Assembly (NCBI RefSeq): GCF_010500815.1
Contig: NZ_JAAAMG010000009.1
Span: forward strand, 124,001 to 188,000
Direction of reading: 5' to 3'
Origin: Jiella pacifica
GTDB taxonomy: Bacteria; Pseudomonadota; Alphaproteobacteria; Rhizobiales; Rhizobiaceae
Length of the DNA stretch: 64,000 nucleotides
Shown here: one piece after another, positions 11,843 to 30,344 of the stretch
How positions within the stretch are numbered: position 1 is the first letter of the stretch
Layout: the number at the start of each line of letters is the position of its first letter
Notes under the pieces: model-generated
Databases searched by the model: none
The model's input: only the letters and a program-made list of their open reading frames with translations
What the model was told of the DNA's origin: nothing
Position numbers and translations under genes: made by a program

Positions 11843-12172
11843 TGCGGTGCACCGGTGTGCGCGGCTGCCGACGGCCGTTTCGCGGCGCGCAGGGCGGCGC
11901 AGCGCAAGCATCTGGAAAGACAAGAGAGGTCCGTCAGCGTCGTCGCTCCGGGTGGAAAGCTCGCCCGAGGATCGGGGGCATGTCGCCGGTATCTGAAACG
12001 CCGCCGGGCGAAGTCAAAGCGCCTGCGCAAAGCCGGCTATGCTTCGCGCTCGGTCGCTCTTCCCGCCGGCTGGAAACGCCCTCGATCCTGCGCCGCACCG
12101 CTCACCTCTGCGGCACGGCCGACAGGACGATTGACAGCGGCGACCTCGCCATGATTGTTTGTATACGAACGA
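11843..12172. other. Divergent promoter region between acyl-CoA dehydrogenase-like and 6-hydroxynicotinate reductase genes
   Basis: 330 bases without a supported gene. For the rightward gene a consensus -35 TTGACA lies at 12131-12136. Seventeen to eighteen bases later a weak -10 (ATTGTT or TTGTTT, 12154-12160) runs into the shared operator box. No promoter for the leftward genes could be picked out by eye. Confidence 0.55.
12153..12171 (+). promoter_or_regulatory. Operator box A, before the reductase gene
   Basis: GATTGTTTGTATACGAACG. Its core TTTGTATACGAA is a palindrome with one mismatch to TTCGTATACGAA. The same box in the same orientation precedes the enamidase and transporter units. It overlaps the expected -10/start region, so a bound MarR protein would block transcription. 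Confidence 0.7.
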
Positions 12173-13678
12173 ATGGCGATCGAAGCGATGGTGGACATGT
12201 CTTCGCAACTAGGCGCCGAGCCGGCTCTCGACGACAAGATTCGCTGCGATGCCTGCCCGGTCATGTGCTACATCAAGCCCGGCATGACCGGTGCCTGCGA
12301 CCGCTATGCCAATCGCGCTGGCGAGCTGGTGCGCGTCGATCCGCACGTCCTGCTCGAACAGGCGATTTCCGGCGGCACCGAGCTCGTGCCCTTCACCCAG
12401 CCGGTGGACTGGGACGGCACCATCGTCCAGACCCCAGAACGCTTCGTCACGGCGATCGGCGCCGGCACCACCTATCCCGACTACAAGCCGGCACCCTTCA
12501 TCGTTTCGTCCGAGATCGACGGCGTCGACATGGTCACCGTCGTCACCGAGGGCATCTTCTCCTATTGCGGCGTCAAGGTGAAGATCGACACCGACCGCTT
12601 CGTCGGCCCGGAGACCAGCCCCGTCCGGGTGGCGGGCGAACAGATCGGCCACGTCACAACCGGCGAATACGGCTCGCAGATGCTGTCGCTCGGCGGCGTC
12701 CACCATCTCACCGGCGGATCCAAGAAAGAAGGCCGCGTCACCTGCCAGGCGCTGCTCGACCTCTCCAACGGCCATGCCGTCGAGATGTCCGTCGACGGCG
12801 GCGCGACGCTGATCGTCGAGGCTGGCAAGCCGCCCATCGTCAACGGCCAGACCGAGACCCGCATGCGGGTCGGCTGCGGCTCGGCCACCATCGGCATCTT
12901 CGCCAAGCAGTGGCTCGGCAAGGCCGACGAGGTGGTGGTGGTCGACGATCACATCACCGGCGTCCTTTCCGAGCACCAGGCCGGCAAGATGCTCGACATT
13001 CCGCCGACCGGCATCCGCCTCAAGGGGCGGCGCTCCACCCCCGGCCGTTATTTCCAGGTGGCCGAGCCCGGCACCGGCTGGGGCGGCACCAACATTTCCG
13101 ATCCGCTGTCGATCCTCGGCGACTTCGACCCCAAACACGCATTCCCCGGCCTGCGTCTCTTGATGGTCTCCACCACCGGCGAGCACGCCGCCTATTATGA
13201 GCTCGACGAGGCGCTTCGCCCGGTCGAGATGGCGATGCCGGAGCCGCTGATCGAGCCGGTCGAGCGGATCGCCGAGAATTGCGAACCGGCACTCTGCACG
13301 GTTCTCTTCATCGGCGGCGCCGGCGGCTCGCTGCGCGCGGGCGTCACGGAAAATCCGGTCCGGCTGACGCGCTCGATCAAGGACGCGCTCACCAACGTCA
13401 CCTGCGGCGGCGCGCCGGTCTATCTCTGGCCGGGGGGCGGCATCACCTTCATGGTCGACGTGACCCGGCTGCCCGACAACGCCTTCGGCTACGTCCCGAC
13501 GCCGGCCCTCGTCGCGCCGCTGGAATTCACCCTCCGGCTCTCCGACTACGCGGCGCTCGGCGGCCACATGGATCACGTCCGCCCCCTCGCCTCGCTGACC
13601 GGCGGCCAGAGCATCCCCAACCGCCGCGACAACCCCTGGCCCTTCGCCCGCCGCATCGCCGGCGAACTCAGCCACTGA
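12173..13678 (+). CDS. 6-Hydroxynicotinate reductase
   Basis: Matches the family of Eubacterium barkeri Hnr, an iron-sulfur flavoprotein that reduces 6-hydroxynicotinate to 1,4,5,6-tetrahydro-6-oxonicotinate. The N-terminus carries CDACPVMCYIKPGMTGAC (Cys25, 28, 32 and 42), a likely Fe-S site; other Cys lie in SYCGVK, VGCGSATIG and NVTCGGAP. No signal peptide or membrane segment is seen, so it is cytoplasmic. ATG 12173 lies only 3 bases after the operator core and has no ribosome site; ATG 12188 or 12197 may be the true start. It heads a unit with the UPF0280 and DUF1185 genes, but repeats separate it from them by 682 bases. Confidence 0.85.
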   Translation: MAIEAMVDMSSQLGAEPALDDKIRCDACPVMCYIKPGMTGACDRYANRAGELVRVDPHVLLEQAISGGTELVPFTQPVDWDGTIVQTPERFVTAIGAGTTYPDYKPAPFIVSSEIDGVDMVTVVTEGIFSYCGVKVKIDTDRFVGPETSPVRVAGEQIGHVTTGEYGSQMLSLGGVHHLTGGSKKEGRVTCQALLDLSNGHAVEMSVDGGATLIVEAGKPPIVNGQTETRMRVGCGSATIGIFAKQWLGKADEVVVVDDHITGVLSEHQAGKMLDIPPTGIRLKGRRSTPGRYFQVAEPGTGWGGTNISDPLSILGDFDPKHAFPGLRLLMVSTTGEHAAYYELDEALRPVEMAMPEPLIEPVERIAENCEPALCTVLFIGGAGGSLRAGVTENPVRLTRSIKDALTNVTCGGAPVYLWPGGGITFMVDVTRLPDNAFGYVPTPALVAPLEFTLRLSDYAALGGHMDHVRPLASLTGGQSIPNRRDNPWPFARRIAGELSH

Positions 13679-13894
13679 CGGGGGTGGTTACGACCATGGC
13701 CGGATGTCTCACGACTAAAGTCCTGCCGAACCGGGACTTCTTCTCGGACCGGGCATCAGATCGGCGCGCGACATCTTTCCGACGTCTCCGTGACGGGTCG
13801 TCGGCAATCCGCTGCCAAAAGGCCTCTGCGTGTCCAACCGGGCTGCGACATTCAAAGCTTCGTCATTCTCGGGCTCCATCCTTACACGACTCAC

Positions 13895-14101
13895 ACATCT
13901 CGGATGGGGCTTCATTGGCAAGCCGGTGCCAAGCGATATCTACGTTGACGGATGGTGGCGAAACCTCGCAGCTTCGTCATTCTCGGGCCCCGTCCCGAGA
14001 ATCCAGGGGCAGCCGCCGCGACGTCTGCCGCTTGCGCCTTCTGCAGCTGAAGCGGGACGCGCCCGACGATTCCTGGATTCTCGGGACGGGGCCCGAGAAT
14101 C
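13895..14101. repeat. Complete BIME-like hairpin repeat with conserved left flank
   Basis: The left flank (about 13895-13970, including TTGGCAAGCCGGTGCCAAG) recurs, in the opposite orientation, beside the copy ending near 26551. The core runs from GCTTCGTCAT, through the hairpin ATTCTCGGG-CCCCGT-CCCGAGAAT and an internal GC-rich stretch, to the mirror hairpin ending at 14100. The two ends are inverted repeats of about 28 bases. This is the structure of paired REP sequences. It encodes no transposase. Confidence 0.8.
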
Positions 14102-14182
14102 ACGACGCGTCGGGGCTGGTGCCTTCATTGTCCATGCCGGCATGCCGATCCGCCTGGACTAGTCGCTGTCTCGAAAGTGCCT

Positions 14183-14294
14183 TTCTTCACCCCAGGGGCA
14201 CCCGTCGCGACATCGGCCGCTTTGGCCTTCTGCAGCTGAAGCGGGACGCGCCCGACGATCTCTGGATTCTCGGGACGGGGCCCGAGAATGACGA
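14183..14294. repeat. Left-truncated copy of the hairpin repeat
   Basis: The internal stretch (CTTCTGCAGCTGAAGCGGGA and following) and the right hairpin GATTCTCGGGACGGGGCCCG match the copy at 13972-14101 closely. The left hairpin is missing and replaced by unrelated sequence. It ends about 65 bases before the UPF0280 start. Confidence 0.75.
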
Positions 14295-14360
14295 CGCGTT
14301 GGGGATAGCGCGCCCACTCCTGCATCTCGACATGTCGAACTTCCATCGGGAGCCGCTGTC

Positions 14361-15278
14361 GTGAAAGCGCTCTTTGAAAAATTCGAAGACAGTCAGCCCA
14401 GGCGAGTGCGGCCCCCGAAGCGTCCCGCCCCCCGGGCCGCGCTCCTGCCGGACGGCCGCCGGCTGCATCTGCAGGACGGCCCGATCGACCTCGTCATCGA
14501 GGCGAACGGCAGCGCCGAAGCAGTCGAGGCGGCATATCTCGCGGCAGTTGACCGGCTGACAGGCCTCCTCGATGGGCTCTGCGCCGAACTGCCCTTGCTG
14601 CGCGCGCCTTTCACCGCCGACGGCCCGATCCCGCGGGATCCGGTCGGCCGCCGCATGTATGACGCGGTAAAACCCTTGGCCGCATCCGGCTTCCTCACGC
14701 CCATGGCCGCCGTCGCCGGAGCCGTCGCCGAGGCGGTCCTCGCCGCCATGGTGGCGGCCGCGCCGCTGACACGCGCCTATGTCAACAATGGCGGCGACAT
14801 CGCCCTCGCTCTGTCGCCGGGGACGAGCTTCGCCATCGGCCTCGTCGACCGGCCGGACAAGCCCTCCCTCTTCGCCCGATCGCATATCCAGGCGGCAGAT
14901 CCGGTTCGCGGCATCGCCACCAGCGGCCGGCACGGGCGGAGCTTCTCCCTCGGCATCGCCGATGCCGTCACGGTCCTTGCCGAAACCGCCGCCGACGCCG
15001 ACGCGGCCGCGACCGTCATCGCCAATGCCGTCGACCTGCCCGACCACCCTGCCATCCGTCGCATTGCGGCGCGTGAGCTCCAGCCCGACAGCGATCTCGG
15101 CGATCGGCTGGTCACGGAGAGCGTCGGGCGGCTGGACCCAGCCGAGATCGATCTCGCACTGACGCGCGGCCTCGCCGTCGCCGATCGCCTCGCCCGCGAG
15201 GGTCTGATCACCGCCGCCGCGCTGCACCTGGCCGGCGCCACCAAGACGACCGGCGCGATGGCGCTGGCCGCAGCCTGA
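14361..15278 (+). CDS. UPF0280 family protein, ApbE-like fold
   Basis: 305 residues, starting with GTG at 14361 with GGGAG nine bases ahead. The motif AYVNNGGDIAL (near 140) resembles the NAGGD motif of ApbE flavin transferases, to which UPF0280 is related. Further motifs are GIATSGRHGRSFSLGIADAV (near 187-206) and DLPDHPAI. Members of this family sit in nicotinate clusters beside 6-hydroxynicotinate reductase, as here. The function is not established. Because the reductase is an iron-sulfur flavoprotein, attachment of its flavin is a reasonable but unproven role. The downstream DUF1185 gene begins 14 bases after the stop. Confidence 0.75.
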   Translation: MKALFEKFEDSQPRRVRPPKRPAPRAALLPDGRRLHLQDGPIDLVIEANGSAEAVEAAYLAAVDRLTGLLDGLCAELPLLRAPFTADGPIPRDPVGRRMYDAVKPLAASGFLTPMAAVAGAVAEAVLAAMVAAAPLTRAYVNNGGDIALALSPGTSFAIGLVDRPDKPSLFARSHIQAADPVRGIATSGRHGRSFSLGIADAVTVLAETAADADAAATVIANAVDLPDHPAIRRIAARELQPDSDLGDRLVTESVGRLDPAEIDLALTRGLAVADRLAREGLITAAALHLAGATKTTGAMALAAA

Positions 15279-15292
15279 GGGAGAACACGCCG

Positions 15293-15877
15293 ATGCCCGA
15301 AATCCAGGTCCGCAAGCGCCTGATCACCGTCGAGGAGATTTTTCACGAGGGCGGCCCGCCGGCTGAAACCCCGCTGCGCCGCGCCGCCGCGCTGGCCGTG
15401 GTGAAGAACCCCTATGCCGGCCGCTATGTCGAGGACATCCAGCCCTTCATGGAGGATCTGAAGCCCTTCGGCCTGACCATGGCCAAGGCGCTGATCGACG
15501 CGCTAGGCGGCGATCCGTCCGTCGTCGAGGGCTATGGCAAGGGCGCGATCGTCGGGTCGGCCGGCGAGATCGAGCACGGCGCCCTGTGGCACGCGCCGGG
15601 CGGCTACGCCATGCGCGAACTCCTCGGCGATGCCAAGGCGATCGTTCCCTCGACCAAGAAGGTCGGCGGCCCCGGCACGCGGCTCGACGTACCCGTCACC
15701 CACATCAACGCCTCTTACGTGCGCGGCCATTTCGACGCCATCGAGGTCGGCATCACCGACGCGCCGCGGGCCGACGAGATCGTCTTCGTCCTCGTGATGA
15801 CCACGGGCGCGAGGATCCACGACCGCGCCGGCGGGCTGAAGGCGAAGGACATCAAGGGAGAGGACGGACTGCGATGA
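15293..15877 (+). CDS. DUF1185 (amino acid synthesis family) protein, copy 1
   Basis: 194 residues, cytoplasmic, with GGGAGA ahead of ATG 15293. The family signature is visible in RAAALAVVKNPYAGRYVEDI, GKGAIVGSAGEIEHGA, DVPVTHINASYVRGHFD and DAPRADEIV. No enzyme activity is established for the family despite its name. The gene overlaps the second copy by ATGA, so both are made together. The two proteins are similar along their whole length and end alike in DIKGEDGLR and EIKGEDGLR, suggesting an old duplication and perhaps a two-subunit complex. Co-location points to a role in nicotinate breakdown. Confidence 0.8.
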   Translation: MPEIQVRKRLITVEEIFHEGGPPAETPLRRAAALAVVKNPYAGRYVEDIQPFMEDLKPFGLTMAKALIDALGGDPSVVEGYGKGAIVGSAGEIEHGALWHAPGGYAMRELLGDAKAIVPSTKKVGGPGTRLDVPVTHINASYVRGHFDAIEVGITDAPRADEIVFVLVMTTGARIHDRAGGLKAKDIKGEDGLR

Positions 15878-16642: not shown

Positions 16643-17584
16643 CTAAAGAGCGGCGCGCTGTTCGAGCGTCGGCCAATCGCACTGCTCATTGAGGCTTGCA
16701 TAGAAGAGATCGGCAAGACGTTTGCGCTCGGCTTCGACCACTGGTCCATCCAGATGGACCTCACGGCAACGACCGTTACTGCCGGACCAGACGAGATCCG
16801 GATTTGCCAGAACGTCGTTCGATTCGCTTTCGAACCAGCTCCGCGAGCCCATGTCGAAGAAGCTCTCGGCAGCAAGGCCGTCGGCCAGGATGACGTCGTG
16901 CTGATCGAGCTCGACATGCCAATAGGTCACCGAGGGCATCGCGGTGCGCTCGATGGTGGTGCCGTTGATCAGATTCATGATCGGCACCAGAACCTCGGCA
17001 CCGTCCTGCTTCACCAGCACCGGATGGCCCGGCGAGAGAAACACGTCACGCGCGGGCACGCCGGGGCCGAAGGCATTCGCCATGACGCGAACCGGCGCCA
17101 TGCGAGAATTCTCGCCCGAACAGTCGATGGTCCGACTGGCGATCCAGACGACCGGCCGCTCGCTGCCTGACGCAGTCAGAGCCAGATCGCCAACGCGCAA
17201 ATCTTCGACTGCAATTTCGGTTTGATTCCCGCCGCAGATCACGCAGATATTCGTGCCCGTCGCGAAGCATAGCGGTTCATATTCACCTAGACTGGTCTCT
17301 GAAAATGAAAATACATGGCCGTCGGACGAGGGAGTATTGGAGAATACGAAGATATTCGTATTTTCACTGAATACTATGTTCCCCGAGTCATCAAATTCCG
17401 TAGCAACTAGCGTCCTAGGAAAACCATCGAAACTAGCAACTATAGTATCTCCTGGATTATTTATGGTGCCATTCATCGTAATTGTGTATGGCGATAGTTG
17501 AATTACAGTAAACTGATTGCCCGACTGCGTGGCTGAAGAGACGTATCCAGCTGGATATTCAACGTTATTGAAGGTAATCGGCAT
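16643..17584 (-). CDS. Hint (Hedgehog/intein) domain protein
   Basis: 313 residues. The Hint domain starts at CFATGTNICVICGG (near 106), followed by VEDLRVGDLAL, RPVVWIASRTI, SPGHPVLV and NLINGTTIERT, the order seen in Hint proteins of alphaproteobacteria; the Cys at the domain start is the expected self-cleavage nucleophile. The first 100 residues are rich in Asn, Thr and Ser, like a secreted beta-rich module, but no signal peptide is visible. The 5' half of the gene (about 17230-17600) is markedly AT-richer than its surroundings, a sign of transfer. It lies on the opposite strand between two parts of the nicotinate island. Function unknown. Confidence 0.75.
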   Translation of the reverse strand: MPITFNNVEYPAGYVSSATQSGNQFTVIQLSPYTITMNGTINNPGDTIVASFDGFPRTLVATEFDDSGNIVFSENTNIFVFSNTPSSDGHVFSFSETSLGEYEPLCFATGTNICVICGGNQTEIAVEDLRVGDLALTASGSERPVVWIASRTIDCSGENSRMAPVRVMANAFGPGVPARDVFLSPGHPVLVKQDGAEVLVPIMNLINGTTIERTAMPSVTYWHVELDQHDVILADGLAAESFFDMGSRSWFESESNDVLANPDLVWSGSNGRCREVHLDGPVVEAERKRLADLFYASLNEQCDWPTLEQRAAL

Positions 17585-18024: not shown

Positions 18025-18516
18025 TCATGCCGCGTCATCCGACTTCACGCGAAGCGCCACGATGTTTGCCGCCTCTCGGGGGCTGAAGTCTGGATCGAGG
18101 AGCTGATCCAAGGTCAAAGGGCACTCTTCGGACAAAGGCGGAACCGCGACACCGTACTCTCGGAGGGAATCCGCGGCATTCCTTCTGGCCAGCTTCCAGA
18201 TCGTGGGAAGGTCCAGACGCTGTCTCAGTCCCGGCGAATATGCCAAGACGGCGTCGGCTTGGAACCCGGAGGCTTCGCCCACCCAATGAGGGACGGACGG
18301 CGCCTCTCGACCGACTGCAATCTTGACGATATGGGTCAGAGTCTGGCGCAACAGGCTCGAGATTTCCTTGATCTCGGCGCGGCCCATATCCTCGATTTCA
18401 TCCGCCAGGTTGTCGATGTCGAGACTACTGGAGCTGCGCGGCAACGCTCGCAGAAGAGCCGCCTGATCCTGCGTCCAGCGATAGAAATCGGTCTCGTGCT
18501 GCTGCGACGGGGTCAT
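18025..18516 (-). CDS. DUF29 family protein
   Basis: 163 residues matching DUF29: FYRWTQDQAALLRAL near the start, then LDIDNLADEIEDMGRAEIKE, then HIVKIAVG. It is a small, all-helical family common in cyanobacteria and alphaproteobacteria, with no known function. No signal peptide. It sits alone, convergent with nothing, 207 bases from the enamidase stop, and probably came with the neighbouring Hint gene rather than belonging to nicotinate metabolism. The ribosome site (GTGAG) is weak. Confidence 0.8.
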   Translation of the reverse strand: MTPSQQHETDFYRWTQDQAALLRALPRSSSSLDIDNLADEIEDMGRAEIKEISSLLRQTLTHIVKIAVGREAPSVPHWVGEASGFQADAVLAYSPGLRQRLDLPTIWKLARRNAADSLREYGVAVPPLSEECPLTLDQLLDPDFSPREAANIVALRVKSDDAA

Positions 18517-18723: not shown

Positions 18724-19926
18724 TTACGATCCCACCACCACGCTCGGAATCTTCTCCGCCGGCGGCGTATTCCGGCTGCGATGCGAGCGCACCACTCCGT
18801 CGATCACCGTCATGCCGACGCCCGGCAGATCGCCCAGCGCGATCGAGTGGAGGAAATCCCGTCCCGCCGAATGCTGCGCCTTGTCCATGAAGACGAAGTC
18901 AGCCGACTTGCCGGTCTCGATCAGCCCGCAATCGAGCGCGCGCATCCGCGCCGTGTTGCCGGTGGCGAAGCAGAAGGCAATCTCGGCCGGAACCTCGCCG
19001 AGCGACGACAGCATCGACACCATGCGGACGATGCCGAGCGGCTGGACGCCCGAGCCGGCCGGGCCGTCGGTGCCGAGGATCACCCGCTCGAGCTGGCCCA
19101 TCTCCTGCGCGATCCGCAGCGTGTAGAGGGCGGCGCGTTCGTTGCCGTTGTGAACGAGCTCGAGCCCGCGCTTGCAGCCCTCGCAGATGCAGCGGATCTC
19201 GCCGTCCGGCAGCGCCGTGTGGCCGCCGTTGACGTGGCCGATCACGTCCGGGTCGACCTCCAGCACCACATCGGCATCGATCAGCCCGGAACCGGGGATC
19301 GACGGCCCGCCGGTGTGGATCGTCGAGTTGAAGCCGTGCTTGCGCGCCCAGGCGACCATCTCGCGCCCGGTCGCCCCGTCCTTCACGCCGCCGAGGCCGA
19401 CCTCGCCGAGGAACTTCACTCCTTGCGCCGCCATCTCGGCAAAATCCTGTTCGACCATGCCGGGCTCGATCACCGGCGCCCCGGCGAGGACCTTCACGCC
19501 GCTCGGGCGAAAATTCGAGAAGATCCGCTGGGCGTAGATCGCCATGGCCTTGACGCCGGCGACGTCGCGCGGCCGCCCGGGCGTATGCACTTCGCCGGCC
19601 GAGATCATCGTCGTCACGCCGCCGTGGAGGGTGGAATCGATCCAGTTCAGCTGGCTCTGGCGCGGCGTCCAGTCACCGGCGACGGGGTGGACGTGGCTGT
19701 CGATCAGGCCCGGCGCCACCACCGTGCCGTTGGCGTCGATCACCGTGTCGGCGCCGCCCAGATCGAGGTCGGTGGCCTTGCCGATCGCGGCGATGCGTCC
19801 ACCCACGGAAACGATCGTATCGGCGTCGAGGATCGGCTTTGCGATGTCGCCCGACAGCATCAAGCCGACATTGCGGATCACCAGCTTCGCGTCCGGCTTA
19901 CCCGCCTGCTGCACCTCATGCGCCAT
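18724..19926 (-). CDS. Enamidase (amidohydrolase), opens the reduced nicotinate ring
   Basis: 400 residues of the amidohydrolase superfamily, close to Eubacterium barkeri enamidase, which hydrolyses 1,4,5,6-tetrahydro-6-oxonicotinate to 2-formylglutarate and ammonia. Metal ligands expected for the two-metal site are present: DSHVHP (His78, His80), STIHTGG (His204), IGHVNGG (His231) and LGTDGPAG (Asp287); Lys171 or Glu175 in VKFLGEVG could bridge the metals. Cytoplasmic. ATG 19926 has AGAGGGG ahead. It is transcribed away from the MarR gene, and operator box B lies 39 bases before its start. It supplies the step after the reductase encoded 5 kb away. Confidence 0.88.
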   Translation of the reverse strand: MAHEVQQAGKPDAKLVIRNVGLMLSGDIAKPILDADTIVSVGGRIAAIGKATDLDLGGADTVIDANGTVVAPGLIDSHVHPVAGDWTPRQSQLNWIDSTLHGGVTTMISAGEVHTPGRPRDVAGVKAMAIYAQRIFSNFRPSGVKVLAGAPVIEPGMVEQDFAEMAAQGVKFLGEVGLGGVKDGATGREMVAWARKHGFNSTIHTGGPSIPGSGLIDADVVLEVDPDVIGHVNGGHTALPDGEIRCICEGCKRGLELVHNGNERAALYTLRIAQEMGQLERVILGTDGPAGSGVQPLGIVRMVSMLSSLGEVPAEIAFCFATGNTARMRALDCGLIETGKSADFVFMDKAQHSAGRDFLHSIALGDLPGVGMTVIDGVVRSHRSRNTPPAEKIPSVVVGS

Positions 19927-19964: not shown

Positions 19965-19983
19965 CATTCGCATACGAACGATC
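19965..19983 (-). promoter_or_regulatory. Operator box B, before the enamidase gene
   Basis: On the minus strand, GATCGTTCGTATGCGAATG. The core palindrome TTCGTATGCGAA has one mismatch to TTCGTATACGAA. It lies in the divergent region between enamidase and the MarR gene, so it may control both. A weaker half-site, GCGAACGAT, follows near 19997-20005. Confidence 0.7.
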
Positions 19984-20185
19984 TTCGGACTATGATGCGC
20001 GAACGATACTTTGGCAACCGGGCGGAGGACGGCTTCCATTCGCATCGAGGGCGGCGGGTGCGACGCCAGGAGATTGCCGCCTCTGGCTGCCTCGGACGGG
20101 ACGGGTTGTCGGCATGTCCGGGCCGGTCCTCGGCAGCAGGCGACGCCTCGACGCTTGGCCGCCTGCCACTGGAAGGAACGACGGT

Positions 20186-22083: not shown

Positions 22084-23982
22084 ATGTCACTTTATGTCGT
22101 GCAGTTCCTGACCGGGCTCGCCAACGCCTCGTCGCTGTTCCTCGCCGCCTGCGGCCTGTCGGTGATCTTCGGGGTCACCCGGATCGTCAACTTCGCCCAC
22201 GGCGCCTTCTACATGCTCGGCGCCTATGTCGCCTATTCGCTGACGCTGCGGCTCGAAGGCGCCTTCGGCTTCTGGGCCGCGATCCTTCTCGCCGCGGCCT
22301 TCGTCGCGGTACTCGGCACGCTTCTGGAGATGCTGCTCCTGCGCCGTATCTACCAGGCGCCGGAACTCTTCCAGCTCCTCGCCACCTTCGGCGTCACGCT
22401 GATGGTCGAGGATCTCGTCCACATCATCTGGGGTCCGCAGGATCTCGTCGGCCCCCGCGCGCCCGGCTTTGAAGGCGCGGTGCCGGTCTTCGGCCTGCCG
22501 GTGCCGACCTACGATCTCCTGTTGATCGTCCTCGGCCCCCTCGTCCTCGGGGGGCTCTGGCTCCTGATGCACCGCACCCGCTGGGGCGTCCTGGTTCGCG
22601 CCGCGACCCAGGACCGCGACATGGTGGCAGCGCTCGGCGTGAACCAGAAATGGCTGTTCACCGGCGTCTTCACCCTCGGCATCTTCCTCGCCGCCTTCGG
22701 CGGCGCGCTGCAGATCCCGCGCACGGCCGTCACCCATCAGATGGACCTGACGATCATCGCCGAGGTCTTCGTCGTCGTCGTCATCGGCGGCCTCGGCTCG
22801 ATCACCGGCGCCTTCCTCGCCGCCGTCCTGATCTCCGAGCTCAACGCCTTCGGCATCCTCGTCTTCCCCGGTATCTCGCTCGTCCTGATGTTCCTGGTCA
22901 TGGCCGTCGTCCTGGTCATCCGGCCTTGGGGTTTCCTCGGCAAGCCGATCCAGACGGGCGTCACGACCATCGGCGAGGCCACGCGGCCCTGGCGCCCCTG
23001 GTCGAACACCACCGGCATCGCCGTCGCCGTCGCCGTCCTGGTCGCCGCCCTCCTGCCCGTCGTCCTCGGCTCCTACGGCCTCAGCGTCGGTTCGCAGATC
23101 CTCATCGCCGTGGTCTTCGCCATGAGCCTGCAGTTCCAGATGTCCACCGGCGGCCTCGATTCCTTCGGTCACGCCGCCTATTTCGGCCTCGGCGCCTATG
23201 GCGCGGCGATGACCGTCGAGTGGTTCGATCTGCCGATGGAGCTGGCGCTCCTCGTCGGCCCGCTGACCGGCCTCGTCGGCGCGCTGGTCTTCGGCTGGTT
23301 CTGCGTCCGCCTCTCCGGCGTCTATTTCGCCATGCTGACGCTGGCCTTCGCCCAGATCACCTGGTCCATCGCCTTCCAGTGGGTCGAGGTGACCGGTGGT
23401 GACAACGGCATCCTCGGCGTCTGGCCGGCCGACTGGGCGTCAAGCCCCGCCAACTTCTACTGGCTGACGCTCACTGTTGGCGTCGTCGCGGTGCTGGCCC
23501 TGCGCCACCTCGTCTTCTCGCCCTTCGGCTACCGCCTCCGGGCCGTGCGGGATTCGACCGTCCGCGCCGAGGCGATCGGCATCTCCCGCCAGCGTACGCA
23601 ATATGTCGCCTTCGCCATCTCCGGCACGGCGGCAGGCCTCGCCGGCGCGCTCTTCGCATTTCTCAAGGGCAGCATCTTTCCCGACGTCCTCGCCATCCCG
23701 ACCTCGATCGACGCGCTCGTCATGGTGCTGCTCGGCGGCGTCGCTACCGTCTCCGGCTCGGTCGTCGGCGCCATCGTCTACACCATGGCCTCGATCTGGC
23801 TGATGAGCGCCACCGACCTGTCGCGGCTGGTGCTCGGCGGCTTCATCGTCTTCCTCGTCGTCGCCTTCCCGCAAGGCATCGTCGGCTCGCTCTCGGCCTT
23901 CGTCTCGGGGCCGTTCGAACGCTGGCGCACCCGCGGGCGAACCGAACGAACCATCGCCGTATCGGCGGAGGGCTCCCGATGA
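22084..23982 (+). CDS. ABC transporter permease, LivH-LivM fusion
   Basis: 632 residues, about twice the length of a single permease. The first half (to about 295) is LivH-like: FGVTRIVNFAHGAFYMLGAY and VVIGGLGSITGAF. The second half is LivM-like: LDSFGHAAYFGLGAYGAA, RAVRDSTVRAEAIGI and LGGVATVSGSVVGA. Each half has several membrane helices, so one chain provides both halves of the pore. The stop overlaps the next start by ATGA. Confidence 0.9.
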   Translation: MSLYVVQFLTGLANASSLFLAACGLSVIFGVTRIVNFAHGAFYMLGAYVAYSLTLRLEGAFGFWAAILLAAAFVAVLGTLLEMLLLRRIYQAPELFQLLATFGVTLMVEDLVHIIWGPQDLVGPRAPGFEGAVPVFGLPVPTYDLLLIVLGPLVLGGLWLLMHRTRWGVLVRAATQDRDMVAALGVNQKWLFTGVFTLGIFLAAFGGALQIPRTAVTHQMDLTIIAEVFVVVVIGGLGSITGAFLAAVLISELNAFGILVFPGISLVLMFLVMAVVLVIRPWGFLGKPIQTGVTTIGEATRPWRPWSNTTGIAVAVAVLVAALLPVVLGSYGLSVGSQILIAVVFAMSLQFQMSTGGLDSFGHAAYFGLGAYGAAMTVEWFDLPMELALLVGPLTGLVGALVFGWFCVRLSGVYFAMLTLAFAQITWSIAFQWVEVTGGDNGILGVWPADWASSPANFYWLTLTVGVVAVLALRHLVFSPFGYRLRAVRDSTVRAEAIGISRQRTQYVAFAISGTAAGLAGALFAFLKGSIFPDVLAIPTSIDALVMVLLGGVATVSGSVVGAIVYTMASIWLMSATDLSRLVLGGFIVFLVVAFPQGIVGSLSAFVSGPFERWRTRGRTERTIAVSAEGSR

Positions 23983-24767
23983 GCGCCGCGCCGCTGCTCC
24001 AGGTCGAGCACCTGTCGAAGTCCTATGGCGGCGTCCATGCCGTTCAGGATGTCTCCTTCAGCCTCGTTCCCGGCGAGATGCTGGCGATGATCGGGCCGAA
24101 CGGCGCCGGCAAGAGCACCTGCTTCAACATGGTCGGCGGCCAGATCCCTGCCGGCTCCGGCCGCGTCCGGATCGACGGCCGCGACGTCTCGGGCCTGTCG
24201 CCCCGCCAGATCTGGCGGCTCGGCGTCGGCCGGACATTCCAGGTGGCGCAGGTGTTCAAGTCGATGACCGTCCGCGAGAACGTCCAGGCCGTCTTTGCCT
24301 CGCGCGAAAGCGGCTGGGGTTTTCTCGCCCGCGCCGGCAGCGCCCACCGCACCGAGGCCGAAGCCGTGCTCCACCTCATCGGCATGGCCGACTTCGCCGA
24401 CCGCCCCTGCGCCGACATGGCCTATGGCGACGTCAAGCGGCTGGAACTCGCCATGGCGCTCGCCAACGATCCGAAGCTTCTTCTGATGGACGAGCCCGCC
24501 GCCGGCATGGCACCGCTGGAGCGGGTCGAGCTGATGGGCCTGACCGCGCGGATCGCCAAGGAAAGGCAGATCGGCGTCCTCTTTACCGAGCACGACATGG
24601 ATGTCGTCTTTGCCCATGCCGACCGGATGATGGTGCTCAATCGCGGCCGGCTGATCGCCGAAGGCAGGCCGGAAGACGTCCGCCAGGACACGCAGGTCAG
24701 GGCCGTCTATCTCGGCGAGGGCCTCGTCTACGACCAGGCGGCGGCGGCAAGGAGGGCGAGCGCGTGA
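23979..24767 (+). CDS. ABC transporter ATP-binding protein, LivG type
   Basis: 262 residues. Walker A is GPNGAGKST (near 38), the signature position reads ADMAYGDVKRLELAMAL, which is MAYGD rather than LSGGQ as is common in LivG proteins, and Walker B is LLLMDEPAAGM. The switch His is in FTEHDMD. It powers the fused permease together with the next gene. It overlaps both neighbours by 4 bases, so the transporter is translated as a coupled unit. Confidence 0.92.
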   Translation: MSAAPLLQVEHLSKSYGGVHAVQDVSFSLVPGEMLAMIGPNGAGKSTCFNMVGGQIPAGSGRVRIDGRDVSGLSPRQIWRLGVGRTFQVAQVFKSMTVRENVQAVFASRESGWGFLARAGSAHRTEAEAVLHLIGMADFADRPCADMAYGDVKRLELAMALANDPKLLLMDEPAAGMAPLERVELMGLTARIAKERQIGVLFTEHDMDVVFAHADRMMVLNRGRLIAEGRPEDVRQDTQVRAVYLGEGLVYDQAAAARRASA

Positions 24768-25483
24768 CGAGTGCAGCGGCAAAGCTTGACGTCGCCCGGC
24801 TGAACGCCTTCTACGGGCCGATCCAGATCCTCTTCGACGTCGGCTTTTCCGTCGGCCGCGGCGAGGTCGTCGCCCTTCTCGGCCGCAACGGCGCCGGCAA
24901 GTCCACCACCTTCAAGTCGCTGATGGGCCTCGTCGACCGGCGCGAGGGCGAGATCCGCTTCGAGGACGCCGAGATCTCCCGCCAGCCGACCTACGAGATC
25001 GCAAGGCGCGGCCTCGGCTACGTGCCGGAGGACCGGCGGGTGTTCGGCGAACTCACGGTCGAGGAGAACCTCGAGGTCGGCCGCCAGCCGGCCCGCGACG
25101 GCGTCACCACCTGGACGCCGGAGCGCCTCTACGCCCTCTTTCCCAATCTCGCCGAGATGCGCCGGCGGCCCGGCGGCCAGATGAGCGGCGGCGAGCAGCA
25201 GATGCTGACGATCTCGCGCACGCTGATGGGCAATCCGTCGCTCGTCCTCCTGGACGAACCGTCGGAGGGCCTTGCCCCGAAGATCATCGAGCAGATGGCC
25301 GACGCGATCCTGGCCATGAAGCGCGAGGGCCTCGGCATCCTTCTCTCCGAGCAGAACCTCCACTTCGCCCGGCTGATCTCCGACCGCGCCTACATTCTGG
25401 AAAAGGGCCGCATCCGCTTTTCCGGGACGATCGCCGAGCTCGAGGCGAACACGGCGGTGCGCGACCAGTATCTCGCCGTCTGA
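24764..25483 (+). CDS. ABC transporter ATP-binding protein, LivF type
   Basis: 239 residues, starting at GTG 24764, which overlaps the previous stop (GTGA). Walker A is GRNGAGKST (near 43), the signature is QMSGGEQQML, Walker B is LVLLDEPSEGL, and the switch region reads LLSEQNLHF, with Gln where many ABC ATPases have His, as usual in LivF. It is the second ATPase of the proposed nicotinate importer. The hydroxylase small subunit starts 9 bases after the stop. Confidence 0.92.
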   Translation: MTSAAAKLDVARLNAFYGPIQILFDVGFSVGRGEVVALLGRNGAGKSTTFKSLMGLVDRREGEIRFEDAEISRQPTYEIARRGLGYVPEDRRVFGELTVEENLEVGRQPARDGVTTWTPERLYALFPNLAEMRRRPGGQMSGGEQQMLTISRTLMGNPSLVLLDEPSEGLAPKIIEQMADAILAMKREGLGILLSEQNLHFARLISDRAYILEKGRIRFSGTIAELEANTAVRDQYLAV

Positions 25484-25492: not shown

Positions 25493-26170
25493 ATGATGCC
25501 CGCCCCGGACGCCGAGATCACCCTTTCCGTCAACGGCATCGCCCATCGCATCGCCGTCCCGGCGACGGCGCCGCTCCTCACCGTCCTGCGCAACGATCTT
25601 CAGCTGAACGGCCCGAAATATGGCTGCGGCCTCGGCCAGTGCGGCGCCTGCACCGTTCTGATCGACGGCATGGCGGCCAGAGCCTGCACGATCCCCGCAG
25701 GCTCCGTTGCCGGCCGCGACATCCTCACCCTCGAAGGCCTGGCGAAAGAGGACCGGCTCGATCCGGTGCAGGAGGCCTTCGTCGCCGAGCAGGCCGCGCA
25801 ATGCGGCTACTGCCTGAACGGCATGATCATGGCGCTGAAGGCGCTGACCCTTCGCAACCCCGCCCCCGACGAGGAGACGATCCGCGAGGCACTCCGCTAC
25901 AATCTCTGCCGCTGCGGGACCCATCTGGAGATCCTCGCCGCCGCCCGCCGGGTGTGCGGGCTCGTGCCCGGTGGGCGACCCCATGGCATTCACACGGGTG
26001 AGCAAACGGCTTCAAGACAGCAGCTGCCGATGAGAATTTCGGATGGTGCGGGGCATGAACTCGAGGCGCCAGCCTCGACGCTTCGTCATTCTCTTGGGCC
26101 GTCCCTGCGAAATCCACACGTCTCAGATCGGCCTCATGGAGAGACCGGCACCGATCGGTGTCACCGTTGA
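25493..26170 (+). CDS. Nicotinate hydroxylase small subunit, 2Fe-2S (NicA-like)
   Basis: The first 155 or so residues are a complete two-cluster [2Fe-2S] subunit of the xanthine dehydrogenase family. The plant-type cluster is GCGLGQCGACTVLIDG plus a further Cys in RACTIP. The second cluster is CGYCLNGM with LCRCGTH. In Pseudomonas, NicA (about 157 residues) pairs with NicB to hydroxylate nicotinate at C6. Here the frame continues to 225 residues, and the tail after about RRVCGLVPGG has low-complexity codons that run into the hairpin repeats from about 26040. The normal stop was probably lost through the repeat insertion or a frameshift (a TGA lies in another frame at 25999-26001). Confidence 0.85.
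   Translation: MMPAPDAEITLSVNGIAHRIAVPATAPLLTVLRNDLQLNGPKYGCGLGQCGACTVLIDGMAARACTIPAGSVAGRDILTLEGLAKEDRLDPVQEAFVAEQAAQCGYCLNGMIMALKALTLRNPAPDEETIREALRYNLCRCGTHLEILAAARRVCGLVPGGRPHGIHTGEQTASRQQLPMRISDGAGHELEAPASTLRHSLGPSLRNPHVSDRPHGETGTDRCHR
26040..26110. repeat. Degenerate half copy of the hairpin repeat
   Basis: CTCGAGGCGCCAGCCTCGAC then GCTTCGTCATTCTC, followed by a damaged hairpin. The same flank, GGAGGCGCCAGCCTCAACGC, precedes the copy at 26414. It lies inside the extended tail of the small-subunit frame. Confidence 0.6.
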
Positions 26171-26317
26171 CGGGTGGTGGCGAAACTCCGCAGCTTCGTC
26201 ATTCTCGGGCTCCGTCCCGAGAATCCAGGAATCGTCGGGCGCGTTCCGCTTCAGCCGCAGAAGGCGGAGGCGGGCGATATTGCGGCAACCGCCCCTGGAT
26301 CCTCGGGACGGGGCTCT
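26115..26317. repeat. Hairpin repeat, copy with damaged right end
   Basis: The left flank includes GTTGACGGGTGGTGGCGAAA, also found at about 13944-13963. The core GCTTCGTCATTCTCGGGCTC starts at 26192; the hairpin and an internal stretch in reverse orientation to the 13972 copy follow. The right hairpin is reduced to GGATCCTCGGGACGGGGCTC. Confidence 0.7.
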
Positions 26318-26384
26318 ACAGCATTCACATGACGCAAAAAGCCATGCCAAGACAGTGCCTTGCGAAGGAAGCTCGAGAGGCGGG

Positions 26385-26645
26385 GGGCAGAAACTGGAGG
26401 CGCCAGCCTCAACGCTTCGTCATTCTCGGGCCCCGTCCCGAGAATCCAGAGATCGTCGGGCACAGTTCGCTTCAGCTGCGGAAGGCGCAAGCGGCAGACG
26501 TCGGGGCTGCTGCCCCTGGATTCTCGGGACGGGGCCCGAGAATGACGAAGCTGCGAGGTTTCGCCGCCCCCTTCAACGGTAAGATCACTTGGCACCGGCT
26601 TACCAATGTAGCCTCGCTGAGATGTGTGAATCTTGTAGGGACGGG
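26385..26645. repeat. Most complete copy of the hairpin repeat, with both flanks
   Basis: The core from GCTTCGTCATTCTCGGGCCC (26414) to the mirrored end GGGCCCGAGAATGACGAAGC (26551) is bounded by matching inverted ends. The right flank (CTGCGAGGTTTCGCC, CACTTGGCACCGGCTTACCA, AGATGTGTGAATC) is the reverse complement of the left flank at 13895-13970. The repeated unit is therefore longer than the core, about 230 bases. Confidence 0.75.
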
Positions 26646-26666
26646 GCCCGAGAATGACGAAGCTTC
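26637..26666. repeat. Single hairpin-end fragment
   Basis: AGGGACGGGGCCCGAGAATG then ACGAAGCTT, the right end of the repeat alone, 28 bases before the ATG at 26694. Confidence 0.65.
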
Positions 26667-26762
26667 AAATGCCGCCGCTAACCGTCATCGCGGATGCCGC
26701 GGCTCGCGAAGCGTTGGCGAGACCGGCTCATCCTGCAAGGCTCAGCTCGAAAGTCCCGCCCG

Positions 26763-29700
26763 ATGAAGGACGAGCGGAACCCGGCCTCGGAGGGTGGGAG
26801 CCTCACCGTCGAACGCGCGTCGGCGAATGGCGCCTCTGAAACCTTCCTCGTTCTCCATGCCGACGGCCATGTCACCGGCTACAACGGCCATGTCGATCTC
26901 GGCACCGGCATTGCCACCGCCCTCGCCCAGATCGTCGCCGAGGAGCTGGACGTCCCCGCCGACCGCGTCGCAATGGTGCTCGGCGACACGGCGCGCACGC
27001 CGGACCAGGGCCCGACGATCGCCAGCGAGACGATCCAGGTCGCGGCTGTGCCGCTGCGCCGGGCGGCCGCGACGGCGCGGCAACTGCTGCTCGCTCGCGC
27101 CGCCGCGATCCTCGACGTTTCGCCTGAAGAGCTGCGGATCGACGACGGCCTCGTCTTCGCGCCGGCCAGCAACCGCCGGCTCGGCTTCGGCGAACTCCTC
27201 GCCGGCGAGACGATCCGGGTGGCGCTGGACGAGCGCGCCCCGGTCAAGTCGCCGGAAACCTACCGGCTGGTCGGCACCTCGCTGCCGCGCGTCGACATAC
27301 CGGACAAGGCATCAGGCCGCGCGATCTATATCCACGACGTCCGCGTGCCCGGCATGCTGCACGGCCGCGTCGTCCGCCCGCCCTATGCCGGGCGAGACAG
27401 TGGCGACTTCATCGGCAAGAGCCTGATCGCCGTCGATCGCGCCTCCGTCGCCGGGCTGCCGGGTTTCGTCGATCTCCTCGTCATCGGCGATTTCGTCGGC
27501 GTGATTTGCGAGCGCGAGGAACAGGCGGGGGAAGCTGCCCGTCTGCTGAAGCTCGAATGGGCCGTCCCGCCGCCGCTGCCGGATCTGGACGATCTCGCCG
27601 AGACGCTGCAGAACCACCCGGGCAAGCCGCGCACGCTGTCCGAGATCGGCGACGTCGACGTCGCCCTCGAAGGCGCCGCCACCCGGCTCACCCGGCGCTA
27701 TGTCTGGCCCTATCAGATGCATGCCTCGATCGGCCCCTCCTGCGCAGTGGCGGATTTCAGAGGCGATTTCCTGACGCTGTGGTCCGGCACCCAGAACCCG
27801 CACATGCTGCGCGGCGACCTCGCCCGGCTCCTCGACATGCGCCCCGAATCGATCGACATCCGCCGGCACGAAGCGGCCGGCTGCTACGGTCGCAACTGTG
27901 CCGACGACGTCAGCGCCGATGCCGCGCTTTTGTCCCGCGCCATCGGCCGCCCCGTCCGCGTGCAGCTCACCCGCGAGCAGGAACATGCCTGGGAGCCCAA
28001 GGGCGCGGCGCAGCTGATCGACATCGACGGCGGTCTCGGCGAGGACGGCGATCTCGCCGCCTACGATTTCCAGACCCGCTATCCCTCCAATCGCGGGCCG
28101 AACCTCGCGCTGCTTCTCACCGGCGCGATCCCGCCGGACCCGCAACCGTCCGACATGGGCGACCGCACCGCGATCCCGCCCTACCATTATGAAACTGAAC
28201 GCATCCGCGTCCACGACATGGCGCCGATCGTCCGCGCCTCCTGGATGCGCGGCGTCTCCGCGATGCCGAACTCCTTCGCCCACGAAAGCTACATCGACGA
28301 GCTCGCCACCGAGGCCGGCGTCGATCCGGTCGCCTTCCGGCTGAAGCATCTGAAGGATCCCCGCGCCGCCGACCTCGTCAGGGCGACGGCGGAGCGTGGT
28401 AATTGGGTCGAGCGGACGGGGCCTCGCCGCACGAGCAACGGCAGGGGCGACGGCGAGACGCTCTACGGCCAGGGCTTTGCCTATGCCGTCTATGTCCACG
28501 GCACCTTTCCCGGCACGGCCGCCGCCCATGCCGCCTGGATCGCCGAGGTGGCGGTCGACAGGCGGACCGGCGAGGTGGCGCTGGAGCGGGTCGTCGTCGG
28601 CCACGATGCCGGCATGATGATCAACCCCGCCGGCGTTCAGCATCAGATCCACGGCAATGTCGTCCAGTCGGCGAGCCGGGTGCTGAAGGAAGAGGTGTCG
28701 TTCCAGAACTCCACCGTCGAAAGCCGCGACTGGGGCAGCTATCCGATCGCCAACTTCCCGGAGGTGCCGGACGTCGAAGTCCTGATGCTGCCACGACCTG
28801 CCGAGCCGCCGCTCGGCGTCGGCGAGTCGGCCTCTGTCCCGAGCGCCGCGGCCATCGCCAATGCGATCTTCGACGCGACCGGCGTGAGGTTCCGCGAACT
28901 GCCCTTCACGCCGGAGAGGATCAAGGCCGGCCTCAATGCGGCTGCAGACGCGAAGCCCAAAGCTGCGAAACTCGGCGGCCATCCATCAGATCGGCCAGCG
29001 GCTTCGGCCCCTCCCGCGCGCCCAAAACTCTGGCGCCGGCTGGCCGCGCCGCTTGCTGCCGGCCTTGCCGCGACGCTCGGCACCGCCGCCATCGGCCTAA
29101 CGCTGCGGGCGCCGATCGCCCCGGTCGCGCCGCCAAGCTCCTCCGTCTATTCCGCCGAAACCTTGGAGCGCGGCCGCCTCCTCGCCGCCCTCGGCGACTG
29201 CGCCGTCTGCCATACCGCCACTGGCGGCGCGACCAATGCCGGCGGCCGGGCGATTGAGACCCCCTTCGGCACCGTCTATTCCACCAACATCACGCCGGAC
29301 GCGGAAACCGGCATCGGCGCTTGGTCCTATCCGGCATTTGCGAGGGCGATGCGCGAAGGCGTCTCCCGCGACGGCCGGCATCTCTATCCGGCCTTCCCCT
29401 ACACGTCCTTCGCCAAAACCTCCGAAGCCGACCTCCATGCGCTCTACGCGCATCTGATGGCGCAGCCGCCGGTGCGCGCCGAAACGCCGAAGACGACCCT
29501 CGCCTTCCCGTTCAATATCCGCGCGCTGATGGCCGGCTGGAACACGCTGTTCCACAAGGCTCAACCCTTCGTGCCCGATCCCGCGCACAGCGCCGAATGG
29601 AACCGCGGCGCCTATCTCGTCGAAGGGCTCGGCCATTGCAGCGCCTGCCACTCGCCGAGGAATGCGCTGGGCGCGGAAAAGCGCGGCGCAGCGCATCTTG

Positions 29701-30344
29701 CCGGCGGCTTCGTCGACGGCTGGCAGGCGCCGGCCCTCGGCAAAGTGAGCGATGCCCCGGTGCCTTGGACCGAAGACGCGCTCTACGCCTATCTGAGGAC
29801 CGGCCGCTCCGCCGAACATGGCGCCGCCGCCGGGCCGATGGCGCCCGTCGTCGCGTCGCTCGCCGAATTGCCGGACGCCGACATCCGGGCGATGTCCGTC
29901 TATCTCTCAGCTCGTCGCGAAACCGCGCCCGGGATCGACGGCACGGCGTTGGCGGAAAAACTCGTCGCCGAGAGCGAGGCGGACATCCGGCCGGCCCGCA
30001 GCGTCGGTGCCAGGCTCTATGACGGCGCCTGCGCCGTCTGCCACCGCAGCGAAGCGCAGGGCGCGCTGTTCAATGCCGGCACGCCGCTCGCCCTGACGAG
30101 TGCCCTCCATGCCGAGCAGCCGGACAATCTGATCCAGGTGGTTCTCTCCGGCGTCGAGCCGGCGAAAAGCGGCGCGCACAGCGCCATGCCAGGCTTTGCC
30201 GACACCTTCACGGACCGGCAGATCGCCGAACTCGTCCGCTACGTCCGCAGCCAGTTCGCCCGCTCCCGTCCCGCCTGGCAGGACGTCGAGACGGCCGTGG
30301 CGAGCGTCCGCCGTTCGACGACCCGGCTCGCTCGGGGACCATAG
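26763..30344 (+). CDS. Nicotinate hydroxylase large subunit, molybdopterin plus tri-heme cytochrome c (NicB-like)
   Basis: 1193 residues, close to the size of Pseudomonas NicB. The N-terminal two thirds are a xanthine-dehydrogenase type molybdenum domain: GYNGHVDLGTGIATALAQIV, SGTQNPHMLRGDLARLL, VRASWMRGVSAMPNSFAHES and, near the end, PPLGVGESASVPSAAAI with the catalytic Glu. A hydrophobic stretch (LAAPLAAGLAATLGTAAIG, near 765) leads into three c-type heme sites, CAVCH, CSACH and CAVCH (near 812, 959 and 1090), with distal Met in the cytochrome domains. Electrons from C6 hydroxylation should pass through the hemes to the respiratory chain. ATG 26763 is the conservative start; ATG 26694 would add 23 residues. 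Neither has a ribosome site. Confidence 0.88.
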   Translation: MKDERNPASEGGSLTVERASANGASETFLVLHADGHVTGYNGHVDLGTGIATALAQIVAEELDVPADRVAMVLGDTARTPDQGPTIASETIQVAAVPLRRAAATARQLLLARAAAILDVSPEELRIDDGLVFAPASNRRLGFGELLAGETIRVALDERAPVKSPETYRLVGTSLPRVDIPDKASGRAIYIHDVRVPGMLHGRVVRPPYAGRDSGDFIGKSLIAVDRASVAGLPGFVDLLVIGDFVGVICEREEQAGEAARLLKLEWAVPPPLPDLDDLAETLQNHPGKPRTLSEIGDVDVALEGAATRLTRRYVWPYQMHASIGPSCAVADFRGDFLTLWSGTQNPHMLRGDLARLLDMRPESIDIRRHEAAGCYGRNCADDVSADAALLSRAIGRPVRVQLTREQEHAWEPKGAAQLIDIDGGLGEDGDLAAYDFQTRYPSNRGPNLALLLTGAIPPDPQPSDMGDRTAIPPYHYETERIRVHDMAPIVRASWMRGVSAMPNSFAHESYIDELATEAGVDPVAFRLKHLKDPRAADLVRATAERGNWVERTGPRRTSNGRGDGETLYGQGFAYAVYVHGTFPGTAAAHAAWIAEVAVDRRTGEVALERVVVGHDAGMMINPAGVQHQIHGNVVQSASRVLKEEVSFQNSTVESRDWGSYPIANFPEVPDVEVLMLPRPAEPPLGVGESASVPSAAAIANAIFDATGVRFRELPFTPERIKAGLNAAADAKPKAAKLGGHPSDRPAASAPPARPKLWRRLAAPLAAGLAATLGTAAIGLTLRAPIAPVAPPSSSVYSAETLERGRLLAALGDCAVCHTATGGATNAGGRAIETPFGTVYSTNITPDAETGIGAWSYPAFARAMREGVSRDGRHLYPAFPYTSFAKTSEADLHALYAHLMAQPPVRAETPKTTLAFPFNIRALMAGWNTLFHKAQPFVPDPAHSAEWNRGAYLVEGLGHCSACHSPRNALGAEKRGAAHLAGGFVDGWQAPALGKVSDAPVPWTEDALYAYLRTGRSAEHGAAAGPMAPVVASLAELPDADIRAMSVYLSARRETAPGIDGTALAEKLVAESEADIRPARSVGARLYDGACAVCHRSEAQGALFNAGTPLALTSALHAEQPDNLIQVVLSGVEPAKSGAHSAMPGFADTFTDRQIAELVRYVRSQFARSRPAWQDVETAVASVRRSTTRLARGP

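Follow-up and report, generated by a model that had tools for sequence, protein, structure and literature searches.

RESULTS

Genes of the probable nicotinate island

The 64,000-nucleotide (nt) stretch of Jiella pacifica DNA analyzed here, called the window throughout, lies on a 208,892-base contig (NZ_JAAAMG010000009.1) of a 5.77-Mb genome in 74 contigs. From 12.15 to 30.34 kb it holds a probable nicotinate island, in which we located the genes for a 6-hydroxynicotinate reductase (hnr), an enamidase (ena), an ATP-binding cassette (ABC) importer, a NicAB-type hydroxylase, and a BpsR-like MarR regulator. The initial annotation had placed uptake genes, hydroxylase, reductase, enamidase, and MarR gene within 18 kb, and all were found where it put them or close by; it made no mention of the UPF0280 and DUF1185 genes (14361 to 15877) or of the shared operators. 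The gene order is hnr, UPF0280, and DUF1185 on the forward strand; a Hint-domain gene, a DUF29 gene, and ena on the reverse strand; and the MarR gene, the importer genes, the nicA-like gene, and the nicB-like gene on the forward strand.

The hnr gene (12173 to 13678, forward strand) encodes a protein with 40% identity over 455 positions to the Eubacterium barkeri Hnr gene product. Its open reading frame (ORF) opens at 12155, and the ATG at 12173 is the more likely start, because the first codon of the ORF adjoins an operator-like site. The product of ena (18724 to 19926, reverse strand) is an amidohydrolase that matches the crystal structure of the E. barkeri enamidase, 2VUN, with a phmmer E value of 1.5e-112 and 48% identity, and it keeps H66, H68, E163, H192, H219, and D275 of that structure. 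We take these to be the metal ligands, and on that assumption the full ligand set previously claimed for this protein is present.

The hydroxylase genes were assigned by family matches. The nicA-like gene (25493 to 26170, forward strand) encodes a 2[2Fe-2S] subunit, and the nicB-like gene (26694 to 30344, forward strand, with a possible start at ATG 26763) encodes a molybdopterin subunit with two molybdopterin-binding domain types and three CxxCH motifs, at residues 836, 982, and 1113. These proteins are 53% and 60% identical, respectively, to NicA and NicB of Azorhizobium doebereinerae (locus L109). The importer genes, likewise assigned by family match and all on the forward strand, encode a substrate-binding protein (20826 to 22037), a permease with two BPD_transp_2 stretches in one protein (22084 to 23982), and two ATPases, one LivG/UrtD-like (23979 to 24767) and one UrtE/LivF-like (24764 to 25483).

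A shared operator-like palindrome and a BpsR-like regulator

The MarR gene (20115 to 20638, forward strand) has an uncertain start, the conserved part beginning at about 20234. The best PDB matches of its product are 2nnn and the BpsR entries 6pcp and 6pco. It keeps three of the four residues of BpsR that contact 6-hydroxynicotinate (6-HNA), namely, Tyr15, Arg26, and His32. Among the MarR matches of 28 related loci, Tyr15 and Arg26 are kept in all 28 and His32 is kept in 21, and the fourth residue, His23, is found in 6, with Phe in 18 and Tyr in 4. These residues support, without proving, 6-HNA or a close analog as the inducer. The regulator had been annotated as NicR/BpsR-like; the likeness to BpsR stands at these effector residues, but Pseudomonas putida NicR does not share them, according to PMC6837509. 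In Bordetella, BpsR goes with the nic cluster, whereas the window regulator lies with the reductive route.

With up to 3 mismatches allowed, the palindrome CGTTCGTATACGAACG has three sites in the window, where 0.19 would be expected, and 100 shuffles never yielded as many. One site, TGTTTGTATACGAACG (12156 to 12171; 2 mismatches), stands upstream of hnr. The second, CATTCGCATACGAACG (19965 to 19980), is upstream of ena and also of the divergent MarR gene, and the third, CGTTCGTATACTAACG (20741 to 20756), precedes the importer genes. The pattern RTTYGYATACDAAY, fitted to the three sites, has only these 3 exact matches in the whole genome, and its reversed control has none. We scanned 39 related loci (L093 to L111 and L134 to L153), of which 11 carried a site at up to 3 mismatches, 18 sites in all: one each in L102, L140, L141, L143, L145, and L147, two each in L103, L105, and L151, and three each in L148 and L150. 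In 16 of the 18 cases, a match to hnr, nicA or another hydroxylase, ena, a ferredoxin-NADP reductase gene (fpr), marR, hyuA, or a nicotinamidase gene follows within 450 nt downstream of the site. Dinucleotide shuffles of seven loci chosen after the first scan had been seen (L103, L105, L109, L147, L148, L150, and L151) gave a mean of 0.10 sites or less. Together with the effector residues of the MarR protein, the shared operators support the prediction that the island genes are regulated as one unit.

Two forms of Hnr and a proposed electron supply

After one duplicate (L001) was dropped, 86 Hnr loci were compared. An N-terminal extension with two CxxCxxCxxxC motifs, that is, a 2[4Fe-4S] ferredoxin domain, was present in 41 and absent from 43, and two (L033 and L069) were undecided. 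The window Hnr belongs to the 43. The initial annotation had noted the reductase as known from E. barkeri, but the E. barkeri enzyme carries the ferredoxin domain at its N terminus, so the two are not simply the same enzyme. By Pfam, Fer4 was found in 39 of 53 aligned Hnr members, one fewer than the motif count for the same rows, probably due to one start having been set too far downstream. The 41 proteins with the domain span Bacillota, sulfate reducers, Archaea, and others. They include those of Eubacterium, Sporomusa, Clostridium, Desulfospira, Treponema bins, and two archaeal bins, hosts that we take to be anaerobes, and also bins with uninformative names (for example, L042, Paenibacillaceae; L056, Actinomycetes; L063, Armatimonadetes; and four named just "bacterium"). 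The 43 short proteins comprise 30 from the search of the window's own phylum, 10 from named Pseudomonadota loci, 2 from Acidobacteria bins, and L079 (bacterium); judged by kinship, their hosts would be aerobes.

All 84 aligned Hnr proteins share five invariant cysteines, four of which belong to a CxxCPxxC...C motif, and 80 have a sixth. Since the short Hnr lacks the built-in ferredoxin domain, it probably depends on an electron carrier outside the protein. Of 41 sources, 9 had a ferredoxin-NADP reductase match in the stretch fetched; in six of these it lay near the enamidase gene (L105, L109, L148, L150, L151, and L153), and the other three are L135, L137, and L140. An FdxA-like frame was found in two of the 41, L109 and L148. 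By NCBIfam, the L148 ferredoxin-NADP reductase scored below cut-off and its FdxA above cut-off.

The structure model of Hnr is confident (mean predicted local distance difference test score, 84.9; predicted template modeling score, 0.82). A Foldseek search of the model against 350,542 PDB chains gave no match at an E value of 0.001 or below, the best being 0.025, and in the 50 matches listed the template modeling (TM) scores were at most 0.11 normalized to the query and 0.23 normalized to the target. This suggests, but does not prove, that Hnr has a new fold. Several candidate leads were set aside. A solved relative of the Hnr core was not found by sequence in the PDB (best E value, 0.48), and the significant PDB matches of the Hnr profile, in the 60 of 197 listed, cover positions 2 to 86, the ferredoxin part. 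A weak GCV_T_C match (window E value, 0.0076; 17 of 53 members at 0.01 or below, best 0.0004) was not accepted as homology, nor was the conserved GCGSA(T/S) segment accepted as a universal flavin site, since its last residue, T or S in 75 of the 84 rows, differs in the other 9.

UPF0280 accompanies Hnr

The gene that follows hnr (14361 to 15278, forward strand) encodes a UPF0280 protein (PRK04334.1-2 by family match). A search of 398 genomes from the phylum identified 32 with Hnr, and these were also the 32 in which UPF0280 was found. A further 50 genomes were picked from 80 enamidase loci and included members of Bacillota, Desulfobacterota, Archaea, Acidobacteria, and other groups; 37 of them had Hnr, and those 37 were also the ones with Hnr-type UPF0280 (E value below 1e-70). 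Some of the tested genomes contributed rows to the profiles (20 of the 50 for UPF0280 and 23 of the 50 for Hnr), which eases finding but does not force absences. In the Hnr-less genome G420, the only UPF0280 found is distant (5e-22) and belongs to a second subfamily, which also occurs in nine Hnr genomes; the pairing therefore holds for the Hnr-type subfamily and not for all UPF0280 proteins. UPF0280 was present in the fetched flank of 82 of the 86 Hnr loci, on the same strand in 81 and directly downstream in 75. The remaining four loci (L040, L056, L065, and L067) were rejected as cases of Hnr without UPF0280, the gene being missing in the fetched flank yet present in the genome. In the window the gap between hnr and the UPF0280 gene is larger, at 686 nt. 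From the genetics, a role of UPF0280 as a maturase or partner of Hnr is likely.

The Pfam ApbE model (PF02424) matched 37 of 47 UPF0280 members at an E value of 0.01 or below, the best at 7.2e-8. The window protein scored 20.4 bits (E value, 0.00042), below the gathering score of 25.6. An hhalign comparison of UPF0280 with a two-row ApbE alignment from the window's own genus gave a probability of 70% (E value, 4.1e-5), against less than 0.5% in five unrelated comparisons. In the PDB, UPF0280 matched 2o34 (E value, 1.9e-19), and a match to the FAD:protein FMN transferase 6nxj was not significant (0.06). By these sequence comparisons UPF0280 is a remote relative of the ApbE flavin transferases. 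The latter have a conserved Ser, His, and Asp and the target motif D-x-x-[ST]-G-A-[ST], as given in PMC12052999; the positions equivalent to ApbE Ser241 and Asp285 are invariant in the 47 UPF0280 rows, and an NGGD motif is present. UPF0280 differs from the ApbE transferases in having no visible leader peptide. The window's own genome encodes two canonical ApbE proteins, and the one inspected (L132) has an apparent twin-arginine leader. The Hnr of E. barkeri is reported (Alhapel et al. 2006) to carry a covalently bound flavin. If the Hnr flavin is covalent, UPF0280 would be a natural candidate to attach it, in the cytosol. Our literature searches found nothing on UPF0280 and nothing joining a covalently bound flavin with 6-hydroxynicotinate.

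The enamidase and a possible alternative ring opener

A genome scan for the enamidase found at least 509 candidate stretches encoding relatives, of which the best 80 were kept, with E. barkeri (L032) among them. In the 398 genomes, the enamidase (E value of 1e-40 or below) was found in 20, including 18 of the 32 Hnr genomes. Hnr was absent from 13 of the 50 enamidase-bearing genomes, many of which are metagenome bins and may be incomplete. In these 13 (L037, L043, L050, L078, L083 to L089, L091, and L092, from Rokubacteria, Actinomycetes, and others, mostly metagenome bins), Hnr-type UPF0280 was not found either.

The other 14 of the 32 Hnr genomes have no enamidase. A search of 44 genomes found a HyuA with at least 61% identity to that of L137 in all 14 (L137 comes from one of them), in 2 of the 18 genomes with both Hnr and enamidase (G123 and G194), and in none of 12 Hnr-less controls; the best matches in the others were 46% and 40% identical. 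The 14 genomes fall in 8 genera and are not independent, so that their count overstates the number of events. G123 and G194 belong to genus g3, as do six of the 14. In the 14 stretches of about 20 kb fetched from the enamidase-free genomes (L134 to L147), HyuA was near Hnr in eight, HyuB in five, and a nicotinamidase in seven. The L137 nicotinamidase matched the PRK11609 family above cut-off. The nearest NCBIfam models were those of caprolactamase alpha for HyuA (1e-150) and beta for HyuB (7e-95), both below the curated cut-offs. An operator-like site stands 31 nt (L141) and 147 nt (L147) before the HyuA match. The natural reading of these data is that an ATP-dependent caprolactamase-like lactamase would open 1,4,5,6-tetrahydro-6-oxonicotinate (THON) in the enamidase-free genomes. 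We found no literature joining caprolactamase with nicotinate.

Relationship to described clusters

A nicotinate cluster found by BLAST was drawn in 2012 for Azorhizobium caulinodans ORS571, Bradyrhizobium japonicum USDA110, Rhodopseudomonas palustris HaA2, and SG-6C, in a paper that also cites the A. caulinodans pathway via glutarate (PMC3511419). The initial annotation had proposed that nicotinate is broken down by hydroxylation and then ring reduction. The sequence supports that proposal, together with ring opening by the enamidase and regulation as one unit, but the joining of the aerobic cluster with Hnr and enamidase is already in print in that paper. Our literature search found no other paper on the genes behind reductive nicotinate breakdown in aerobes.

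The window shares with such Azorhizobium-type clusters an Hnr ortholog, an enamidase with the metal-site residues, and what appears to be an orthologous cytochrome-type hydroxylase. An ABC transporter and two conserved genes are also present in both, and the latter presumably correspond to the two unknown genes in PMC3511419. In A. doebereinerae L109, the Hnr, UPF0280, DUF1185, NicA, NicB, and Ena proteins are 53 to 76% identical to those of the window. The fetched L109 stretch had no match to the window MarR or importer.

The E. barkeri cluster (L032) has homologs of Hnr, enamidase, UPF0280, and DUF1185 with 34 to 48% identity, and in it UPF0280 adjoins hnr and DUF1185 adjoins ena. The B12-route genes that lie downstream in that cluster were not seen in the window island.

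In a tree of 48 Hnr proteins, the window Hnr clusters with the protein of G382, a genome of another family (97/96), and falls outside a group containing genera g3 and g7, which belong to the window's own family. Support is weak (85/67) for a broader cluster that takes in Azorhizobium, Afipia, and f3 genomes, and the tree carries a long-branch warning elsewhere. This placement suggests horizontal gain or differential loss of hnr. Hnr was not found in G392, the one same-genus genome among the 398.

DUF1185, repeat arrays, and neighboring genes

The DUF1185 (AA_synth) protein, encoded at 15293 to 15877 on the forward strand and assigned by family match, is conserved in the pathway: matches with many invariant residues occur in 68 of the 80 enamidase loci, from Bacillota to Archaea. 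An assignment of function by fold was set aside, only 3byq and 2qtp matching well; a tRNA synthetase match had an E value of 7.8e-4 and a TM score of 0.22.

Repeat comparison identified two arrays of the same palindromic repeats, one between hnr and the UPF0280 gene (13842 to 14318) and the other at 26034 to 26678. The arrays are mutually inverted, with 179-nt arms that are 89% complementary and 12,257 nt apart, an arrangement through which the intervening 12-kb segment might be inverted. Six of seven repeat copies found in 368 kb of own-genome sequence lie in the island. The nicA reading frame runs about 65 to 70 residues into repeat-bearing DNA (25960 to 26170). The arrays split hnr from UPF0280 and nicA from nicB, which sets the window apart from Azorhizobium-type clusters.

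Between the DUF1185 gene and ena, the island is interrupted by the Hint-domain gene (16643 to 17584, reverse strand) and the DUF29 gene (18025 to 18516, reverse strand), which have no evident relation to it. The left flank contains an RNase E gene (4919 to 8095), and the right flank a Mla-type transporter. Three further ORFs (11090 to 12154, 13279 to 14364, and 26158 to 26766) were rejected as genes, having no family match and failing a codon-position GC filter, which also missed nicA and the MarR gene and so is not decisive. The initial annotation had not seen the maleamate-route genes nicC, nicX, nicD, nicE, and nicF. No family of these types was found among 30 window ORFs in a Pfam scan (some of them not real genes), and the statement stands for those ORFs; the search for that route covered neither the remaining window ORFs nor the genome outside the window.

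DISCUSSION

As a whole, the island is very probably an Azorhizobium-type nicotinate catabolic regulon, which is the best explanation of its genes, their homology, the operator-like sites, and the co-occurrence data. From these we infer the substrates, the fluxes, the binding of the sites by the MarR protein, and its effector. The ABC system would bring in nicotinate, and the NicAB-type enzyme would convert it to 6-HNA by hydroxylation, passing the electrons to its c-type hemes. Hnr would reduce 6-HNA to THON, the enamidase would open THON to 2-formylglutarate and ammonia, and the carbon would continue towards glutarate through enzymes presumably encoded elsewhere. The BpsR-like protein would repress three promoters via one palindrome and be released by 6-HNA. 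Going further, because this Hnr does not carry the ferredoxin domain fused to the E. barkeri enzyme, its electron donor may be a free-standing ferredoxin that is itself fed by a ferredoxin-NADP reductase. UPF0280 may be a dedicated maturation or flavin-handling partner of Hnr.

A broader picture drawn jointly from the relatives is put forward tentatively, its parts together being somewhat less probable than not. Hnr would be a redox enzyme of undescribed fold whose cofactor is installed by UPF0280, a dedicated, cytosolic, noncanonical relative of ApbE without the ApbE histidine and target motif. The aerobic Hnr without a ferredoxin domain would be fed from NADPH via Fpr and FdxA, and in many proteobacteria an ATP-dependent, caprolactamase-like HyuAB would take the place of the enamidase and open the THON lactam.

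Several observations weigh against these proposals. The specificity of the NicAB-type enzyme is read from its architecture and context. In the window MarR, His23 of the BpsR pocket is Phe, which leaves it outside a strict four-contact group, and the fetched stretches of 28 of the 39 related loci, Azorhizobium L109 among them, have no site at up to 3 mismatches. No fpr or fdxA gene was found in the window island, in contrast to the six related loci with a ferredoxin-NADP reductase gene near ena, and the best Fpr homolog in the window's own genome has 48% identity and one TGA reported within its match. No column of the UPF0280 alignment has a conserved histidine in more than 17 of the 47 rows, so that an equivalent of ApbE His257 is missing, and the D-x-x-[ST]-G-A-[ST] target motif occurs in none of 84 Hnr rows, the short form [ST]GA[ST] occurring in 4. 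UPF0280 and Hnr therefore depart from the canonical ApbE mechanism.

The substitution in the MarR pocket would also fit an island that degrades another pyridine or lactam-forming N-heterocycle, such as a substituted nicotinate or another hydroxypyridine carboxylate, with homologs of shifted specificity. The urea/amino-acid type importer is uninformative on the substrate, and Hnr without Ena and Ena without Hnr occur elsewhere, so the modules combine differently. We consider a different substrate improbable, given that the hydroxylase, Hnr, Ena, and BpsR-like MarR occur together under one operator type and that this set makes up the nicotinate cluster already published for relatives of A. caulinodans; in SG-6C, 6-chloronicotinate enters the same route through a separate chlorohydrolase (both from PMC3511419). 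A decayed or silent island is less probable still. Arrays of about 0.5 and 0.6 kb do lie inside otherwise compact transcription units, parting hnr from UPF0280 by the 686-nt gap and nicA from nicB, and repeat DNA encodes the tail of nicA, but the pathway ORFs are open, with conserved cysteines, metal-site residues, and heme motifs, and the three operator-like sites are present. For UPF0280, the choice is closer. Its constant pairing with Hnr, in 32 of 32 and in 37 of 37 genomes, and its position directly downstream in 75 of 86 loci fit a subunit of Hnr with a part in catalysis or electron transfer (the docking site of a flavin or electron donor, for example) as well as they fit a maturase, and the missing histidine column favors the subunit. 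The relationship to ApbE (Pfam and hhalign) points instead to flavin transfer, and we regard the subunit role as rather unlikely.

The two families UPF0280 and DUF1185, which have no assigned function in the libraries used, gain a pathway from this analysis, and Hnr, with a confident model and no significant match to a solved fold, becomes a structural target. The main value of the cluster is that comparison with its relatives turns several points of the aerobic reductive route into testable proposals: that UPF0280 may serve Hnr, that Fpr and FdxA may replace the fused ferredoxin, that HyuAB may open the ring where the enamidase is absent, and that the operator may define the regulon.

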